A stretch of DNA of 64,000 nt from Bacteroidota bacterium (GTDB lineage Bacteria > Bacteroidota > Ignavibacteria > Kapaibacteriales > UBA961), in contig JAFDZU010000003.1 in the NCBI GenBank assembly GCA_018266765.1, forward strand, positions 1 to 64,000. The letters run 5' to 3'. The position numbers were made by a program, and so were the translations under genes. Positions within the stretch are counted from its first letter, which is position 1. Each line of letters starts with the position of its first letter. Shown here piece by piece: positions 30,900 to 39,700 of the stretch. The notes beneath the pieces are model-generated. The model ran no database searches. It saw only the letters and a list, made by a program, of their open reading frames with translations, and was not told the DNA's origin.

Positions 30900-31421
30900 T
30901 TGATTTTTGAAGAACTATACAGCTCGCACAAACGCATGGTTTACAACCTTGCTCTGCAATACGTGCAAAACACCGAAGATGCCGAAGAAATAACACAGGA
31001 TGTTTTTGTTTCGGTGTTTCAATCGCTTGATAATTTTAAGTTGGAGTCGAATGTTGCTACATGGATTTACCGCATTACCATCAATAAATCACTCGACCAT
31101 ATCAAATCTAAGCAACGTAAGAAACGATTCTCATTTTTAACATCGCTGTTTTTTGACGATAGTAGTGAATTACGACATGACCCGCCAGAGTTTAATCATC
31201 CGGGTGTGCAGTTGGAAAATAAAGAAGCGATAGAGCATATTTTCAAGCATATCAATCAATTGCCCGACAATCAAAAAACAGCATTAATTCTCCACAAAAT
31301 CGAACAAATGACACAAACGGAAGTTGCTGAAATTATGGAAATTACCCCAAAAGCAGTCGAATCTCTCATTCAAAGAGCCAAAACAAAACTTTCAGCTACA
31401 TTGAGATTGAGCGAAGGATAA
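30900..31421 (+). CDS. ECF-type RNA polymerase sigma factor
   Basis: The protein contains sigma-70 region 2 (FEELYSSHKRMVYNLALQYVQNTEDAEEITQDVFVSVFQSL, then TWIYRITINKSLDHIKS) and region 4 (LPDNQKTALILHKIEQMTQTEVAEIM...AVESLIQRAKTKL). I place the start at the TTG at 30900, six codons before the conserved FEELY. The frame stays open up to a GTG at 30762, but those extra 46 residues are unlike the family and overlap the peptidase stop. ECF factors redirect RNA polymerase in response to envelope signals. The next genes (anti-sigma-like, Spy-like sensor, MbnP, MbnH) are the likely regulon. Confidence 0.9.
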   Translation: MIFEELYSSHKRMVYNLALQYVQNTEDAEEITQDVFVSVFQSLDNFKLESNVATWIYRITINKSLDHIKSKQRKKRFSFLTSLFFDDSSELRHDPPEFNHPGVQLENKEAIEHIFKHINQLPDNQKTALILHKIEQMTQTEVAEIMEITPKAVESLIQRAKTKLSATLRLSEG

Positions 31422-31478
31422 ACAGAATTATATCGTCAAACATTTTCAGAATATCAATACTTGAGAAAGCAGATTACA

Positions 31479-31733
31479 ATGAACATAGATTATTTAGATA
31501 CAATTCGGAAAGTAGATGCGCCTCCGTACTTATTTACTCGTATTCAACAGAAAATCCGAGACTCGCACTCTGCCACAGTTCCGAAAAAATTTGCTTGGGC
31601 TGTCGCTCTTTCGTGCTTTGTGGTGCTGTATGTAAATATCAGCGCAGTATTGTACACAACCGAATCTTATAAACCCACAACAAACATTGCTCAATCAATG
31701 GATTTAATGCCAAATAATTCTTTCTACAAATGA
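31479..31733 (+). CDS. Small single-pass membrane protein, probable anti-sigma factor
   Basis: 84 residues from the ATG at 31479; a TTG at 31461 gives six more residues but looks less likely. The N-terminal cytoplasmic part contains IRKVDAPPYLFTRIQQKI, a short helix seen in Bacteroidota anti-sigma-type proteins. One transmembrane helix follows (about 40-60) and a short periplasmic tail. Position directly after the ECF sigma gene and a four-base overlap with the next gene support a role in binding the sigma factor. No conserved anti-sigma zinc motif is present, so this is an inference. Confidence 0.7.
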   Translation: MNIDYLDTIRKVDAPPYLFTRIQQKIRDSHSATVPKKFAWAVALSCFVVLYVNISAVLYTTESYKPTTNIAQSMDLMPNNSFYK

Positions 31734-32191
31734 GTAAATTACGATTATTAACCGCTGTATTCATCGGCTTGCTTGCAGTAAACATTGTACTGATTTGGAT
31801 GCTGTTCTCACACAGACCAATGCCTCCCGGCGGTGGTGAAGGGCCAAGAGCCATCGTTATCGAAAAACTTGGCTTTGATGAAAATCAATCGAAGGAATAT
31901 GATAACTATATTGAGTGGCATAAATCCGAGATACGAGAATCTGACGGGCAAATTAAGGAGCTAAAAAACAAATTGTATGCAACCTTAATTTCCGACGGGC
32001 AGGAATCTGTTAAAGATTCATTGATTAATGAAATTAGCAAGGTTCAAGTTCACATTGAACAGATACATTACAAGCATTTTCAGGACATTAAAAAGCTCTG
32101 CTCGCCGGATCAGGTAAAAGCATTCGACACACTTTGCATAGACCTTGCAAAAATATTCGCCCCTCATCCACCAAAAAGAAAGAAGGAATGA
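31730..32191 (+). CDS. Periplasmic Spy/CpxP-like sensor of the ECF system
   Basis: A 153-residue protein. An N-terminal signal anchor (about 6-27) is followed by a short Pro/Gly linker (PMPPGGGEGP). An all-helical domain then reads LGFDENQSKEYDNYIEWHKSEI...IKELKNKLYATLIS...QIHYKHFQDIKKLCSPDQVKAFDTL. This is the arrangement of the Metal_resist/CnrR/ZraP group and of Bacteroidota proteins annotated as sensor of ECF-type sigma factor. It has several His and two Cys in the sensor part, consistent with metal binding. It overlaps its neighbours by four bases on both sides. It probably passes a periplasmic metal or misfolding signal to the anti-sigma protein. Confidence 0.75.
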   Translation: MSKLRLLTAVFIGLLAVNIVLIWMLFSHRPMPPGGGEGPRAIVIEKLGFDENQSKEYDNYIEWHKSEIRESDGQIKELKNKLYATLISDGQESVKDSLINEISKVQVHIEQIHYKHFQDIKKLCSPDQVKAFDTLCIDLAKIFAPHPPKRKKE

Positions 32192-32883
32192 AAAACCTTT
32201 CTATAATTTTTGTGATTGTTTTTGTGTCGTCTGTGCGTTTCATATCTGCTCAAACAAACACAGCAATGTATATTTCCATTTCGCCAACGTATGGGGCAAA
32301 TGTTGTGGATTTGGCTGATTCTTCTTTTCTTACTAATGATTCCAATAACTTACAAATTGATGTGTTGAAATTTTATATTTCACACTTTCAGTTTCTCAAG
32401 GCAGGAATTAATGTTTTAGAAGAGCAAAACAGTTTTCATCTTGTAGATGCCTCTGACCCAAAAACACTGCAAATTATCATCCTAAATAAACAAAACATAG
32501 TGTTTGATCAACTCGATTTTTATCTTGGAATTGATAGCATTACTACAGTTTCCGGTGCAATGGGTGGCGACTTAGACCCGACAAAAGGAATGTATTGGAG
32601 TTGGCAAAGCGGATATATTAATTGTAAATTAGAAGGAAAAAGCAAACTATGCAGTACACGAAACAACGAGTTTCAATTTCATCTTGGTGGATACCAATCA
32701 CCATTTAATACTTTGCAAGCATTAGAATTTCCAATTTCCAACACTGAGCATATTCATATTACTTTTGACATTAAAAAGATTATTGAGAATATAAACTTAG
32801 CGACACTCAATCATGTGATGTCGCCAAATAACGTTGCACTGCAACTCTCAAAAACGGTTTCCAAAGCAATTTCGATTAAATAA
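32188..32883 (+). CDS. MbnP-like periplasmic protein
   Basis: 231 residues from the ATG at 32188, which overlaps the previous stop by four bases; a longer frame from 32134 lies inside that gene. It has a signal peptide (about 1-21, ending ISAQ) and then an MbnP-type domain with DVLKFYISHFQF and GGDLDPTKGMYWSWQSGYINCKLEG (about 126-150). In characterised methanotrophs MbnP carries a tryptophan that MbnH oxidises to kynurenine; Trp137 and Trp139 here lie in the matching region, although I cannot say which would be modified. It sits one base before the mbnH-like gene, which supports the pairing. Copper binding is inferred from the family. Its link to methanobactin does not apply, since no such genes are visible. 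Confidence 0.85.
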   Translation: MKNLSIIFVIVFVSSVRFISAQTNTAMYISISPTYGANVVDLADSSFLTNDSNNLQIDVLKFYISHFQFLKAGINVLEEQNSFHLVDASDPKTLQIIILNKQNIVFDQLDFYLGIDSITTVSGAMGGDLDPTKGMYWSWQSGYINCKLEGKSKLCSTRNNEFQFHLGGYQSPFNTLQALEFPISNTEHIHITFDIKKIIENINLATLNHVMSPNNVALQLSKTVSKAISIK

Positions 32884-32884
32884 C

Positions 32885-33895
32885 ATGAAAGCACGACGGT
32901 ACTTCCTTTTATGTATTTGTTTCGTCGTATCGGCTTTTCAATTTACCGAAAAATCACTTTTTTTCGTTCCTGATACTTGGCCAAAGCCCAAGTATGATTT
33001 TTCCAAAAATCCCATTACTGAAAGCAAGGTAGAATTAGGTAGAAAATTGTTTTACGACCCGATTTTTTCCGGTGATAACACTATTTCTTGTGCAAGTTGT
33101 CACTCGCAATATACTGCGTTCACACATGTAGATCATGCACTTAGTCATGGCATCGAAGATAGAATCGGCACTCGCAATTCACCTGCATTAATGAATCTAG
33201 CTTGGCAAAAATTATTCATGCGTGATGGTGCAGTTAATCATTTGGATATGCAGGCACTTGCTCCAATCAGTAATCCGCTTGAGATGGATGAAACTATTAC
33301 TCATGTTGTGTCAAAACTACAAGCAAATAATTTATATCCGACGCTGTTTTACAGAGCATTCGGCGATTCAATTATTACAGGCGAGCACACTCTAAAAGCA
33401 ATTTCTCAATTTATGCTCACGCTTATTTCAAGTAACTCACGATATGACAGTGTGATGCGAAAACAAGCAAATTTCTCTGAACAGGAAAAAAATGGCTATC
33501 GGTTGTATCAACAGAACTGTTCGTCATGCCATCCTGAGCCGTTATTTACCAATGATGAATTTATGAATAATGGGCTTCCGACTGACTCAACGCTGAAAGA
33601 TTATGGAAGATTAGGAGTAACTAAAAATCCAAATGATTCCTTAAAATTTAAAGTGCCCACACTTCGCAATGTCGAATTTTCATACCCCTACATGCACGAT
33701 GGTCGTTTCAAACGACTTTCGGAAGTTCTGAAGCATTATACTTCTGGCATTAGGCAAAGCAACACATTAGCAAATGTTTTACAAAAACCAATCGTGCTGA
33801 CTTCCAATGAAAAAGTTGATATTATAGCGTTCCTACTGACGCTGACCGATAAATCTTTTCTATTTAATCCGAAATTTTCTTACCCCAGGAAATAG
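32885..33895 (+). CDS. MbnH/MauG-like diheme cytochrome c peroxidase
   Basis: 336 residues from the ATG at 32885. A signal-like N-terminus (1-22) leads into a bacterial diheme peroxidase fold with two CxxCH haem motifs, CASCH (69-73) and CSSCH (212-216). Other family marks are LGRKLFYDPIFSGDNTISC, TRNSPALMNLAW, the SNPLEM loop and FKVPTLRNVEFSYPYMHDGRF near the C-terminus. Paired with the MbnP-like gene (one base apart), it most likely oxidises that partner in the periplasm rather than detoxifying peroxide. It is the last gene of the sigma operon. Confidence 0.92.
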   Translation: MKARRYFLLCICFVVSAFQFTEKSLFFVPDTWPKPKYDFSKNPITESKVELGRKLFYDPIFSGDNTISCASCHSQYTAFTHVDHALSHGIEDRIGTRNSPALMNLAWQKLFMRDGAVNHLDMQALAPISNPLEMDETITHVVSKLQANNLYPTLFYRAFGDSIITGEHTLKAISQFMLTLISSNSRYDSVMRKQANFSEQEKNGYRLYQQNCSSCHPEPLFTNDEFMNNGLPTDSTLKDYGRLGVTKNPNDSLKFKVPTLRNVEFSYPYMHDGRFKRLSEVLKHYTSGIRQSNTLANVLQKPIVLTSNEKVDIIAFLLTLTDKSFLFNPKFSYPRK

Positions 33896-34315
33896 GGTGT
33901 TGAAATAGTTTAAAAAATTGCATTAACTCTTATTTAATTACTAATTAAATATAAAAGTATCGAATGTGTAATGTTTATTTTAATGCTCAGAACCAACGTA
34001 AAAAATCTTTGCTAAGAATAGCAATATCAGTAAAAAAACAGTCAATCCAATCGAATTCCAAGGTGTTATTTAATATTTCTGATTGTTAATTTCTTCTCTT
34101 CTGCACCAATCACTCAAATGAGTCGAAGAATACAGTTTTCTGATAGAAAACTCTTGTAAATACAGTCGAAAATTAGTAAAAAAGAAAATACCACAGTTTG
34201 CTGTATTTTGCTTCATCTTATTCACTATTTTTGCAGTGCAAATCGTTGTAAAATACCCTTCCGCGATTCGTCCCCAAGATTCGCACATTTTTCTAATATT
34301 TTCTTAGGATTTCTC
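33896..34315. other. 420-base intergenic region
   Basis: No convincing gene; a 72-codon minus-strand frame at 34070-34288 has no recognisable features. It holds a perfect hairpin (AGTTTTCT 34134-34141, AGAAAACT 34145-34152) without a T-run, and the probable promoter of the macroglobulin gene (-7 element at 34226-34233). Confidence 0.5.
34226..34233 (+). promoter_or_regulatory. Bacteroidota-type -7 element for the macroglobulin gene
   Basis: TATTTTTG, matching TAnnTTTG, 82 bases before the ATG at 34316. A TTTTG lies 15 bases upstream, shorter than the usual spacer. Confidence 0.4.
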
Positions 34316-37300
34316 ATGATATTCCGCGTTGTTTTGTTTGTAGTTTCTGTGCTTGTTTTGGCAAGCTGTAGCGGTGATAAAGTCAATATAACCTCTCGAA
34401 ATTTTACTGATGAAGTTCAACGAGAACAAAATCTTTCGTTTACGTTCGATAAGCCGTTGATGCCTGACTCGCTTCTTACCTACAATTGGGATACAACATC
34501 GTATATTAAATTTACGCCGTCAGTTCGCGGAAAATTTCGATGGAATTCGCCAACGGAACTTCTCTTTTCGCCAAGCAAAGGATTCAAGCCGAGCACCGAC
34601 TACAAAGGTGAATTAAGCGAAATAATTTTGCGGTATGCCGATAAAAAATTGAAAATATCCGATGAAAATGTATTTGCTTTTCACACGCCGTATCTGAAAC
34701 TTATGGATGCTTTGCCTTTTTGGGCAAAATCCACCAAAAACCCCTCGCAGGTTGCACTGCAATTACGGTTAAATTTCACAGAAAATGTTAATCCTCAAGA
34801 ACTTGCAAATTTACTGCATATTCAGTTGGACGGCAAAGATGCGCCTTTTGAACTTCCGTTTTCGACTGTAGATAAAACAATTCAAGTGATTATAGAAAAT
34901 CCGCCTTCGGGTACAGCACGTTTGCCCGTAAGAGTTCTTGTAGATAAAGGATTACGGTGTGTAGAAAGTGAGTTTATTACCAAAAATCCATTTGAACTTA
35001 TATTTGACGCACCTTCACGCGATAAAATTCAGATTGTACAAGTATCTACAGGTTTTGAAGACGAAAAACAGGCAATTGAAATTCTTACCACACAAAGTAT
35101 TGATAATTCTGATATTCAACCGCTTGTATCTGTCAATCCTTCGGTAAAATTTACAGCTGAAACTATGGAATACGGTTTAATTGTCAAAGGCGATTTCAAG
35201 ATTGGAACTACGTACGAACTGACCGTTTCGGGAAAATTAAAGGGAATTGTGGGCGGTGAAATGCAACAGGATTACAAACAATATGTACAGTTCGGAGAGC
35301 TGAGACCGACGCTTGCTTTTACTTCACAGAAAGCGGTGTATCTCACATCAAAAGGCGATAAAAATGTTGGTCTGAAAATCACCAATATTCCGAGAGTTCG
35401 GGTAATTATCACAAAAATTTATGAAAATAATATTCTTGCGTTCCTGCGTGACGGCGGAGGGTATTCCGAAGATGGATATCAAGAGGAATATAATAATTAC
35501 AGCTGGCTCGACACCAAAAATTATGGTGATGAAATTGTCAATAAAATCGTTGAAACAAAATCACTTCCCAAAGACAACGGACGTAGTTTATTAAATCTAA
35601 ATTTCGATGATAAAACTATGTTCAAGGGAATCTATTTAGTAAAAGTAACTTCCGAAGATGAAGAATATCTGAATGCTACCAAAGTAGTAGCAATTTCCGA
35701 CATCGGACTCATAGCCAAATCCACCGACAATGAAATCGTAGTATTTGCCAATTCAATTATAAGTGCAAACCCGCTTTCGGGGGTAAATATACAGCTTGTA
35801 AGTTCAAATAACCAGTTTGTTTATAAGGCATCAACCGGCACCGACGGCATTGCACGCTTCCCGAATATCAAACAAAAAGCTCCGGGGTTTCATGTCGAAA
35901 TGTTGACAGCGCAAATGGATAAAGATTATACGTATCTGCATCTAAACAGAACAAAAGTCGAAACTTCTCGCTTTGATGTCGGTGGGGTGCGCGAAAATCC
36001 GACGGGATATCAGGCATTTATCTATGGTGACAGAAATATCTATCGTCCGGGTGAAACGCTTCATTTAAGTGCTATTGTTCGTACGATGGAATGGGAACCT
36101 GTAGTCAATATTCCTGTTAAATTAAAGCTTTTAATGCCAAATGGCAAGGAATACAAAACCGCAAAATTTACTCTCGGAGAACAAGGTTCGTTTGAAACTG
36201 CGATTAACTTGCCAACGACAGTTGTAACGGGTTCGTATAGTGCAGAACTGTATTCTGCTAATGATATCTTACTGAATTCTACGGTAATTAGCGTCGAAGA
36301 ATTTATGCCTGACCGAATAAGTGTGGCTGTTCATACGGATAAATCAGATTATAAAATAAACGAACAAGTTACTGTCAATGCTCAGGTTATGAATCTATTC
36401 GGGCCGCCTGCTTCGGGACGTAATTATCAAATGGAATATTCACTTGCTCGCAAGCAATTTATCGCAAAAAACTTCAAAGATTATATTTTTACTATTCAAA
36501 CTAAAAATAATACTCAATTCCAAAAAGAACTGCGTGAAGGTAAAACCGATGCCGAAGGTAAAGCATCGCAAACATTCGCAATTGGTCAGGAATATGAGAA
36601 TCTTGGGCTGTTGGCCAGCAAGGTTTATACTACTGTTTTTGATGAAACAGGTCGTCCTGTGAACCGGCTTTCTACATTTGATATTATAACTCAAAGCGCA
36701 TTTTTTGGAATTAAAAATTTTGATAATTATGTTGGCTTGCGAAGTAATCTGACAATTCCTTTGCTTGCCGTTGATAAAAATGGAAATGCACAAAACGGAG
36801 TTCAAGCAAAAGTACAAATCATCAAGTTTAATTGGCAAAATGTGATTGAAAAGGACTATAATTATTATAGAAATGTATCACAAAAGCAGGAACAGATTTT
36901 AATTGAACGTACCATGACGCTCAGCGGTTCGTCCACTTCGTTGAATTTTACACCGATGCTTTCGGGTGAATACGAAGTTAGGATTATGAAACCTGGAGCG
37001 AGTGGATATGTAGCCCAAAGTTTCTATGCTTACGGATGGGGATATACGCAAAGTTCATCGTTTGAAGTGAATAAAGAAGGACAAATTGACATCGAAACCG
37101 ACAAAGAAAAGTATAATATTGGCGATAAAGCATCAATTCTATTCAAAACTCCATTTGCCGGAAAACTGCTCGTAACGATTGAACGAAATAAAGTTTTAGA
37201 GTATTTCTATCTCGAAACAGATAAAAAGTCGGCATTGCTTACCTTGCCGATTAAAGAAGAGTATCTGCCGAATGTCTATGTAACGGCAACTCTCTTTAAA

Positions 37301-39700
37301 CCAGTTGATGACGGCACAATGCCACTGACCGTTGCAACAGGTTTTCAGCCGATTATCGTGGACAAACCTTCTTCGAGGATTCCGGTGAGTATTACCGTTG
37401 CCGAAAAATCTCGCTCGAACACCAAACAAACAATCACTGTTCGCACAGGTGAACCAAATGTTCATCTTACAATTGCAGTGGTGGACGAAGGAATTCTTCA
37501 GCTTAAAAATTATAAAACTCCCGACCCTCATGACTTTTTCTATGCAAAACGTGCACTTGAAGTTAATTCACACAATCTCTATCCATTCCTCTTTCCTGAA
37601 TTTTCTCGAAAGAAATCAAGTACTGCCGGTGACGGTTACGACCTGAATAAACGAGTGAATCCATTTACGACCAAACGAGTTAATTTAATTTCTTTGTGGA
37701 GCGGAATTATCAAAACTTCCGGCTCTGAGGCGAGTTATACAATTGATATTCCACAATTTTCGGGTGATTTGAGAGTGATGGTAGTTTGTTATAAAAACAA
37801 ATCGTTCGGAGCTGCAGAAAAGCATATTAAGGTTGCCGACCCGATTGTCGTTTCATCGGCTTTGCCTCGATTTGCAAGTCCGAATGATACACTTGTTATA
37901 CCTGTAACACTAACAAATACAACCTCAAAAACTGCAAATGCAACTGCAAAACTTTCGATAAGTGGAGCAATGTATGTGGTGGGAAATTATCAGCAATCGG
38001 TCAATATTTCGGCTAATTCCGAAGCAAATGTTACATTCCGTGCAGTCGCAAAACAAGAAATCGGAATTGCTGATGCTACCGTAAGCGTGCAAGCACTCGG
38101 TGAAACATTTACAGAAAAAACCTCGATGAGTGTTCGTCCGGTCGCAGGTCTGCTCAAAACTTCGGGCGATGGCGTGGTAAATTCAGGGCAAACGCAAACA
38201 GTTAATCTTACTGTAGGGTATATTCCTTCTTCGATGGATGCAAAACTTATTGTATCGCGTTCGCCGCTCGTTCAATTTACCAAGAATCTCACGTATCTTG
38301 TTCAATATCCGTATGGTTGTGTAGAACAAACTGTTTCGTCGGCTTTTCCTCAGATTTACTATTTCGACCTCGCTAAATCAATTCAAGACCGTTCGATGCA
38401 GGGAGCAAATCCTGCCTACAATGTACAGCAAGCAATTACCAAACTTGGCTCGATGCAAGTGTATAACGGAGGGTTCGGGTATTGGCAAGGTGACGAATCT
38501 GCTTCATGGTGGGGAAGTGCGTATGCCGTTCATTTCCTTTGGGAAGCCAAAAAAGGCGGGTTTGAAGTACCATCTTCTACAATTGATAAAGCCGCTTCGT
38601 ATTTATTCCAAGAAGTGAAGACTCGTCGAACAATTCAGTATAATTATCGTGTGAATGGCGGAACGGTGAAATCTCGTCCGATTATTCCCCAAGAAGTGGC
38701 GTATTCTCTTTATGTACTTGCACTTGTAGGACGAGCCGATGTATCAACCATGAACTATTGCAAGTCGAATTTAACACAACTTACCGATGATTCGCGCTAT
38801 CTTTTAGCTGGTGCGTTCATGCTCATTGGCGACCAAACAAGTTTCAAAGGGCTACTTCCCAAATCTTCATTCACGGATGAACAATCAGTTTCGATAACTG
38901 CCGGAAGTTTTTGCTCTTCAATTCGTGACCAAGGCATTGCACTCAATACACTTTTGGAAGTTGATCCCGATAACAAACAAATCCCGATTATGGCACGGCA
39001 TCTTTCTGAAAATATGAAACATCAGCGATATTTATCAACGCAAGAAAATGTGTTTGCTCTGCTCGCCTTCGGGAAAATTGCCAAAAGAAACTTTTCTGCG
39101 AACGCCTCGGCAACAATCACCGTTGGCGGAAAAACTATCGGTTCGGCCGGCGAAAATACTTTTGTTACTTCAAAAGATATTGCCGGAAAGCAAGTAAGCA
39201 TTAGCGCAAATGGCGGAACAATGTATTATTTCTGGAGTTTGGAAGGACTGAGTGCGGATGGCAAATTTGTGCAGGAAGATAACTTCCTTAGAGTTCGCAA
39301 GGAGTTTTTGAATAGAAACGGACAGCAACTTTCATCAACTACGTTTAAACAGAATGATTTAGTTGTTGTGAAAATAATACTTTCAACAATTCACAATGAA
39401 CAAGTATTTAATGTTGCAATTACTGATATGCTTCCTGCCGGATTTGAAATTGAGAATCCGCGGGTTGGGTCTGTGCCCGAACTCTCATGGATAAAAAACA
39501 ATACAAAACCGGAATATTTAGACATTCGCGACGACAGAATTAACATTTTTACAACAGCTTCGGGTAAAGAAACGGCGTATTATTATCTTGTGCGTGCAGT
39601 CTCGAAAGGTTCATTTATGATGGGGCCGGTGAGTGCAGATGCTATGTATAACGGTGAATATCATTCGTATAATGGAGCTGGAGTGGTGAGGATTGAGTAA
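34316..39700 (+). CDS. Alpha-2-macroglobulin family lipoprotein
   Basis: 1794 residues from the ATG at 34316; the frame is open from 34208, but the earlier residues precede the signal. The lipoprotein signal ends in LVLASC (lipidated Cys18). Bacterial macroglobulins are periplasmic protease traps that bind attacking proteases through a reactive thioester. Domains in order are an N-terminal MG region, the MG2-type FIYGDRNIYRPGETLHLSAIVR, the TIAVVDEGILQL stretch, and the thioester domain with PYGCVEQTVSS (Cys1335 of CxEQ). The thioester is intact, so covalent trapping is possible. No pbpC gene is adjacent, unlike in many Proteobacteria. It is transcribed alone. Confidence 0.93.
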   Translation: MIFRVVLFVVSVLVLASCSGDKVNITSRNFTDEVQREQNLSFTFDKPLMPDSLLTYNWDTTSYIKFTPSVRGKFRWNSPTELLFSPSKGFKPSTDYKGELSEIILRYADKKLKISDENVFAFHTPYLKLMDALPFWAKSTKNPSQVALQLRLNFTENVNPQELANLLHIQLDGKDAPFELPFSTVDKTIQVIIENPPSGTARLPVRVLVDKGLRCVESEFITKNPFELIFDAPSRDKIQIVQVSTGFEDEKQAIEILTTQSIDNSDIQPLVSVNPSVKFTAETMEYGLIVKGDFKIGTTYELTVSGKLKGIVGGEMQQDYKQYVQFGELRPTLAFTSQKAVYLTSKGDKNVGLKITNIPRVRVIITKIYENNILAFLRDGGGYSEDGYQEEYNNYSWLDTKNYGDEIVNKIVETKSLPKDNGRSLLNLNFDDKTMFKGIYLVKVTSEDEEYLNATKVVAISDIGLIAKSTDNEIVVFANSIISANPLSGVNIQLVSSNNQFVYKASTGTDGIARFPNIKQKAPGFHVEMLTAQMDKDYTYLHLNRTKVETSRFDVGGVRENPTGYQAFIYGDRNIYRPGETLHLSAIVRTMEWEPVVNIPVKLKLLMPNGKEYKTAKFTLGEQGSFETAINLPTTVVTGSYSAELYSANDILLNSTVISVEEFMPDRISVAVHTDKSDYKINEQVTVNAQVMNLFGPPASGRNYQMEYSLARKQFIAKNFKDYIFTIQTKNNTQFQKELREGKTDAEGKASQTFAIGQEYENLGLLASKVYTTVFDETGRPVNRLSTFDIITQSAFFGIKNFDNYVGLRSNLTIPLLAVDKNGNAQNGVQAKVQIIKFNWQNVIEKDYNYYRNVSQKQEQILIERTMTLSGSSTSLNFTPMLSGEYEVRIMKPGASGYVAQSFYAYGWGYTQSSSFEVNKEGQIDIETDKEKYNIGDKASILFKTPFAGKLLVTIERNKVLEYFYLETDKKSALLTLPIKEEYLPNVYVTATLFKPVDDGTMPLTVATGFQPIIVDKPSSRIPVSITVAEKSRSNTKQTITVRTGEPNVHLTIAVVDEGILQLKNYKTPDPHDFFYAKRALEVNSHNLYPFLFPEFSRKKSSTAGDGYDLNKRVNPFTTKRVNLISLWSGIIKTSGSEASYTIDIPQFSGDLRVMVVCYKNKSFGAAEKHIKVADPIVVSSALPRFASPNDTLVIPVTLTNTTSKTANATAKLSISGAMYVVGNYQQSVNISANSEANVTFRAVAKQEIGIADATVSVQALGETFTEKTSMSVRPVAGLLKTSGDGVVNSGQTQTVNLTVGYIPSSMDAKLIVSRSPLVQFTKNLTYLVQYPYGCVEQTVSSAFPQIYYFDLAKSIQDRSMQGANPAYNVQQAITKLGSMQVYNGGFGYWQGDESASWWGSAYAVHFLWEAKKGGFEVPSSTIDKAASYLFQEVKTRRTIQYNYRVNGGTVKSRPIIPQEVAYSLYVLALVGRADVSTMNYCKSNLTQLTDDSRYLLAGAFMLIGDQTSFKGLLPKSSFTDEQSVSITAGSFCSSIRDQGIALNTLLEVDPDNKQIPIMARHLSENMKHQRYLSTQENVFALLAFGKIAKRNFSANASATITVGGKTIGSAGENTFVTSKDIAGKQVSISANGGTMYYFWSLEGLSADGKFVQEDNFLRVRKEFLNRNGQQLSSTTFKQNDLVVVKIILSTIHNEQVFNVAITDMLPAGFEIENPRVGSVPELSWIKNNTKPEYLDIRDDRINIFTTASGKETAYYYLVRAVSKGSFMMGPVSADAMYNGEYHSYNGAGVVRIE

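Follow-up and report, generated by a model that had tools for sequence, protein, structure and literature searches.

A CnrYXH-like ECF sigma factor module joined to an MbnP/MbnH pair in a Kapaibacteriales genome

The locus type described here bears on the regulation of the MbnP/MbnH protein pair outside methanobactin loci. The locus lies in a 64,000-nucleotide stretch of DNA (the window) from a member of the Bacteroidota, in which genes for an extracytoplasmic function (ECF) sigma factor, a small membrane protein, and a periplasmic sensor precede those for MbnP and MbnH. Here, we characterize the five gene products, trace their linkage through the phylum, and consider which signal the unit might read.

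The Five-Gene Unit and Its Products

The genes in Table 1 were described in the preliminary description as standing head to tail from 30900 to 33895, and they do so, all on the plus strand. From the sigma gene to MbnH, the inter-gene gaps are +57, -4, -4, and +1 nt. The tight packing that had been noted after the sigma gene holds for the three junctions 3' of the anti-sigma gene (a 4-nt overlap or 1 nt), while the sigma/anti-sigma junction of 57 nt is looser than the other three. This gap has room for an internal promoter, which counts against control as one unit. Downstream of the operon, window positions 34208-39700 encode a large bacterial alpha-2-macroglobulin-like protein.

Table 1. Coordinates of the genes, motifs, and candidate residues (window numbering).
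Feature	Position	Strand	Basis
ECF sigma factor, 173 aa, TTG start	30900..31421	+	Sigma70_r2 and r4_2 profile matches
Anti-sigma-like protein, 84 aa, one TM	31479..31733	+	Topology; conserved in 24 loci
Sensor, CnrX-fold (predicted), periplasmic, 153 aa, N-terminal TM (residues 3-27)	31730..32191	+	AF2 model and fold search
Sensor His64 codon	31919..31921	+	H in 20/24
Sensor His116 codon, aligned with CnrX ligand H119	32075..32077	+	H in 20/24
Sensor Cys124 codon, invariant	32099..32101	+	24/24 in cassette set
MbnP, 231 aa, signal peptide	32188..32883	+	PF20243 1.6e-39; AF2 fold match 7l6g
MbnP WxW motif (W137, W139), invariant	32596..32604	+	Alignment A4, 28 sequences
MbnH/MauG-type di-heme enzyme, 336 aa, two CxxCH	32885..33895	+	CCP_MauG 3e-53; PDB sequence match 6e1c
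MbnH heme motif 1, CASCH	33089..33103	+	Cys/His invariant in alignment A6
MbnH heme motif 2, CSSCH	33518..33532	+	Cys/His invariant in alignment A6
MbnH Tyr285	33737..33739	+	Aligned with Tyr of 6e1c; invariant in A6 (17 relatives)

The sigma factor matches the Pfam families Sigma70_r2 (3.4e-18) and r4_2 (1.8e-14), and its profile matches CnrH (E=9.5e-22). Its start is placed at the TTG at 30900 because the TTG/ATG starts of homologues, which open on M(I/N)FEELY, align there. Dyad and k-mer counts upstream of the sigma gene in 20 loci gave no shared ECF promoter dyad above shuffles, and autoregulation by the sigma factor is therefore unsupported; a TAnnTTTG sigma-A-like box is present in a few of these loci.

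The second gene product consists of about 39 cytosolic residues, a transmembrane (TM) helix at residues 40-58, and a 26-aa periplasmic tail, a topology shared with CnrY (95 aa, TM 46-64). No Pfam or NCBIfam family matches it, and no sequence similarity to CnrY is detectable. Members of the set have 37-60 cytosolic residues, one TM, and 23-41 periplasmic residues, and the tail ends in a conserved N-x-(L/F)-Y, usually N-x-L-Y (24 loci). The protein is a putative short class-II-like anti-sigma factor on the CnrY plan.

The sensor reaches PF13801 (Metal_resist) only under the cut-off (E=0.003), with relatives up to 2.8e-12. When its AF2 model (pLDDT 90) was searched against the PDB, ranks 1-15 were all NccX or CnrX (probability 1.00, E about 0.01, not <0.001) and CpxP stood at rank 49. 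The sensor, which had been called Spy-like, is thus nearer to CnrX/NccX in its predicted fold, which favours metal or redox sensing over the sensing of misfolded proteins. A CnrX-like fold in the sensor and a CnrY-like topology in the anti-sigma protein together make the first three genes a CnrYXH-like module. Only one of five metal ligands of CnrX is kept, with H42, H46, E63, H119, and M123 aligned with R, I, I, H, and I, respectively. The residues His64, His116, and Cys124 form a candidate metal or redox site, as judged from their conservation. Both histidines are absent from the same four sensors (L018, L050, L052, and L055), and the HHC trio is again the rule in a wider set of sensors that takes in a few paralogues outside the module (44 of 59 rows).

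The identities proposed earlier for the last two genes are upheld by Pfam profiles, the MbnP fold, and the alignment of the MbnH heme ligands. The sole significant solved fold for the AlphaFold model of MbnP (pLDDT 90) is 7l6g, the MbnP of Methylosinus trichosporium (E 6e-8); the sequence profile has no match in the PDB, and the homology becomes visible by fold search. The best PDB sequence match of MbnH is 6e1c (E=1.1e-40, entry title 'Di-heme enzyme'), which we take to be the MbnH structure. By alignment, Tyr285 takes the distal heme-ligand position: it matches a Tyr of 6e1c and the Met region of 1iqc, the residue being Met in di-heme cytochrome c peroxidases. The NCBIfam model MbnP_like_WxW matches MbnP under its equivalog cut-off, as does TIGR04039 (MbnH) for the enzyme, at 220.9 bits against 362.85. 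In papers from 2019-2021, MbnH reportedly converts an MbnP tryptophan to kynurenine, which serves to bind copper. A parallel case of Trp oxidation and copper binding is documented for CorA (PMC3912023). By analogy, MbnH may oxidise a tryptophan of the window MbnP, probably in the WxW motif, and the copper site is putative.

Recurrence of the Linkage and Its Partners

The prediction that the sigma-MbnP/MbnH linkage would recur in distant genera was borne out across several classes. The regulatory cassette stands with MbnP/MbnH in Ignavibacteria/Kapaibacteria, Flavobacteriia, Chitinophagia, and Sphingobacteriia. The loci from named genomes were picked by similarity to the window MbnP, and many cassette-bearing genomes are metagenome-assembled genomes (MAGs) whose names may be wrong. 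Chryseobacterium edaphi and Flavobacterium paronense, both isolates, are among the carriers in Flavobacteriia. Across 392 genomes sampled evenly from the phylum, sensor and MbnP genes lie within 5 kb of each other at four loci, the window included, against about 0.04 expected, a value slightly too low in that some genomes with both were left out of the calculation; with so large an excess, the adjacency is not due to chance. Besides the window, the sensor adjoins MbnP in 3 of about 95 MbnP loci in the even phylum sample (L139, L146, and L226), and most MbnP/MbnH pairs of the phylum are without the module.

The cassette-linked MbnPs, 27 in number, all belong to one MbnP clade of 42 (support 99, repeated with IQ-TREE), and 41 of the 42 have the cassette, a gene for a YHYH-domain protein, or both as neighbours. 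Outside this clade, the cassette is found in 0/96 and the YHYH gene in 2/96 cases, as counted with a YHYH HMM limited to the domain, T9SS tail excluded. This T9SS-sorted YHYH protein, which went unnoticed in the preliminary description, is the most constant partner and is encoded after MbnH in most relatives. Its profile matched PDB entries through the T9SS tail only, with nothing for the domain. Among the 392 genomes, the YHYH gene lies within 5 kb of a sensor at nine loci (0.08 expected), the sensors being ranked by likeness to cassette sensors, and within 5 kb of MbnP at seven (0.2 expected).

In the present genome the YHYH gene sits elsewhere, on contig C21 (L243:5922-12827), in the order YHYH, multicopper oxidase, AhpC/TSA redoxin, and sulfatase, with T9SS tails and BACON domains; in relatives, these genes stand beside MbnP/MbnH. 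A second MbnP/MbnH pair, followed by a di-heme peroxidase-like gene (378 aa), is found on contig C31 (L003:1-2774). Its MbnP belongs to a different clade, and no module is present as far as the contig extends. The absence of a visible methanobactin gene, remarked on earlier, extends to the genome, in which no methanobactin-type operon, with an MbnA precursor gene close to MbnB and MbnC genes, was found. The sole MbnB-family protein is encoded on a different contig, C36, as part of a bufferin-like pair, and this candidate for such an operon was rejected. The pair (L250:1070-2295) consists of a 99-aa signal-peptide protein with repeated CKG motifs and a DUF692/MbnB-family protein (E=2e-105).

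The module itself is a general one in the Bacteroidota; its cargoes are several, and it is not specific to MbnP/MbnH. Twenty further top sensor loci include one full MbnP/MbnH-YHYH operon, four loci in which the first or second gene downstream is a YHYH gene confirmed by Pfam, and two with a di-heme peroxidase directly downstream, the remainder having other genes. YHYH proteins, di-heme peroxidases, and MscS-like and DUF1566-like proteins all occur as cargo, and many modules have no adjoining copper gene. At L234 and L239, the sigma/anti-sigma/sensor module lies right upstream of di-heme peroxidases without MbnP. At L057:6452-11036, in a Saprospiraceae MAG, the MbnP/MbnH-YHYH genes stand behind a different, weakly matching ECF gene and a gene for a TM-TPR protein.

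The AU test on a tree of sigma factor and sensor rejects the grouping of all MbnP-linked modules in a single clade (p=0.0003). Pairwise distances correlate at 0.75-0.87 within the regulatory half, at 0.54 between MbnP and MbnH, and at 0.04-0.21 between the halves, a weakness to which saturation of the pair distances may contribute. In a same-genus relative (L018/L245), MbnP is 46% identical to that of the window and the sensor 18%. Taken together, these results indicate that the two halves came together on more than one occasion, or that the module was repeatedly exchanged, and such recurrence speaks for a function. In L063, a rearranged copy, the module and MbnP/MbnH are still adjacent.

Proposed Mechanism and Alternative Readings

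We put at roughly 55% the probability that the operon combines an ECF signalling module of the CnrYXH type with an effector pair on one transcript, copper or a copper-linked redox change being the most likely signal. In this mechanism, the sensor, with its predicted CnrX fold, and the short anti-sigma factor, which is class-II-like, would hold the sigma factor at the inner membrane. A periplasmic signal, read through His64, His116, and Cys124, would alter the sensor/anti-sigma complex, possibly via the C-terminal N-x-L-Y tail of the anti-sigma factor, and free the sigma factor. The freed sigma factor would raise expression of its own operon, MbnP and MbnH included, and perhaps act in trans on the YHYH/multicopper-oxidase cluster of this genome. 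MbnH would then build the copper site of MbnP by oxidising one of its tryptophans, the probable target lying in the WxW motif. The recurrent and repeated linkage suggests that the module probably controls the MbnP/MbnH pair. Copper as the signal is a reasoned guess, the multicopper oxidase in the extended neighbourhood supporting a copper theme, and we infer the direction of the response. The envelope-sensing circuit over a copper-type protein that had been proposed from the window thus keeps its five-gene unit and gains recurrent linkage, but misfolding as its signal is disfavoured by the sensor fold.

The same module could instead answer to Ni, Co, Zn, or an oxidant acting through Cys124, MbnP/MbnH being one cargo among several. 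Ni and Co are what CnrX and NccX sense, the invariant cysteine could act as a redox switch, and the cargoes vary as described above; with the Ni/Co ligands of CnrX lost in the sensor and copper-type cargo (MbnP, multicopper oxidase) in this clade, we consider a signal other than copper unlikely. It is quite improbable that the sensor is a chaperone-sensor of misfolded envelope protein of the Spy/CpxP type and MbnP/MbnH an envelope-stress target. Spy does top the profile-sequence search of the PDB with the sensor (E=0.003), and LTXXQ family matches occur in 7 of 24 members, but the fold search places CpxP far below CnrX and NccX, and the single N-terminal TM, the conserved His/His/Cys trio, and the invariable pairing with a short one-TM anti-sigma protein all speak against it.

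Neutral linkage, in which an old operon is kept by descent or hitch-hiking and the sigma factor regulates other genes, would fit the existence of the module without MbnP/MbnH and the lack of a shared promoter motif in the 20 loci. The recruitment more than once, the rearranged yet adjacent copy in L063, the joining of a different ECF gene and TM-TPR gene to MbnP/MbnH-YHYH in the Saprospiraceae MAG, and the translational overlaps between the genes render it very improbable. A broader form of the copper reading, possible but on balance doubtful, is that MbnP-MbnH-YHYH constitutes an undescribed Bacteroidota copper-handling system that repeatedly gained a dedicated CnrYXH-like ECF module, the His/His/Cys site of the sensor reading periplasmic Cu(I). 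As part of the same tentative proposal, the system would often include a multicopper oxidase and a redoxin, with several parts secreted by the T9SS.

Comparison with Known Systems

A 2020 survey found a class I anti-sigma factor next to no more than 6% of the ECFs in Bacteroidetes and suggested that anti-sigma factors of other classes may prevail in this group (PMC7406223). The locus type offers a concrete candidate class for Bacteroidota, which is CnrY-like and comes with a sensor of predicted CnrX fold. It links this class to a copper-type protein pair and a YHYH partner and singles out His64, His116, and Cys124 of the sensor as targets.

Methanotroph MbnP/MbnH, CorA/CorB, and MopE/SACCP likewise combine a partner protein with a MauG-like di-heme enzyme, and the methanotroph MbnP/MbnH group shares the WxW motif, the Tyr at the heme-ligand position, and the MbnP fold. 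The window pair differs in having no methanobactin operon, in its own MbnP clade linked to YHYH, and in scoring below the NCBIfam equivalog cut-offs. In Methylosinus, isolated MbnP/MbnH pairs lie by the ECF factor MbnI and the anti-sigma factor MbnR with a TonB receptor, an arrangement of the FecIR type (PMC3621798; PMC9601215). This MbnIR-MbnT system resembles the window in its ECF and anti-sigma genes near an MbnP/MbnH pair, but its anti-sigma factor is FecR-type and signalled by the TonB receptor, whereas the window has a CnrX-like sensor and no TonB receptor; a search by Pfam families gave neither a FecR-like anti-sigma factor nor a TonB receptor among the operon proteins and the scanned flanking genes. 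The sigma link, which had been presented as the novel part, is therefore new in its CnrYXH-like type and not in the presence of an ECF gene beside MbnP/MbnH (PMC3621798). In Acinetobacter, the copper-responsive ECF factor SigAb has a CnrY-like small anti-sigma factor, AabA (PMC12153292). SigAb-AabA-AabB would match the window unit in this pairing and in the proposed copper response, and it belongs to another phylum with another regulon.

A close parallel is CnrYXH/NccYXH of Cupriavidus metallidurans, where, as proposed for the window, an ECF factor, a short one-TM anti-sigma factor, and a one-TM CnrX-fold sensor have effectors directly downstream. There, CnrH is released once CnrX binds metal, and it drives transcription both of cnrYXH and of its targets (PMC7689651; PMC4803752). 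A 40-aa 'YHYH domain-containing' protein of pMOL28, encoded upstream of cnrY and on the opposite strand (L249:12905-13027), is probably a coincidence of naming. No report of a CnrYXH-like module with MbnP/MbnH or YHYH was found in the open-access papers that the search covered. The window operon differs from CnrYXH/NccYXH in gene order, with the sigma gene first, in the loss of four of five Ni/Co ligands with His64, His116, and Cys124 present instead, and in having MbnP/MbnH as effectors in place of an RND efflux pump. What is new is a CnrYXH-like module with a putative new sensing site and new effectors.
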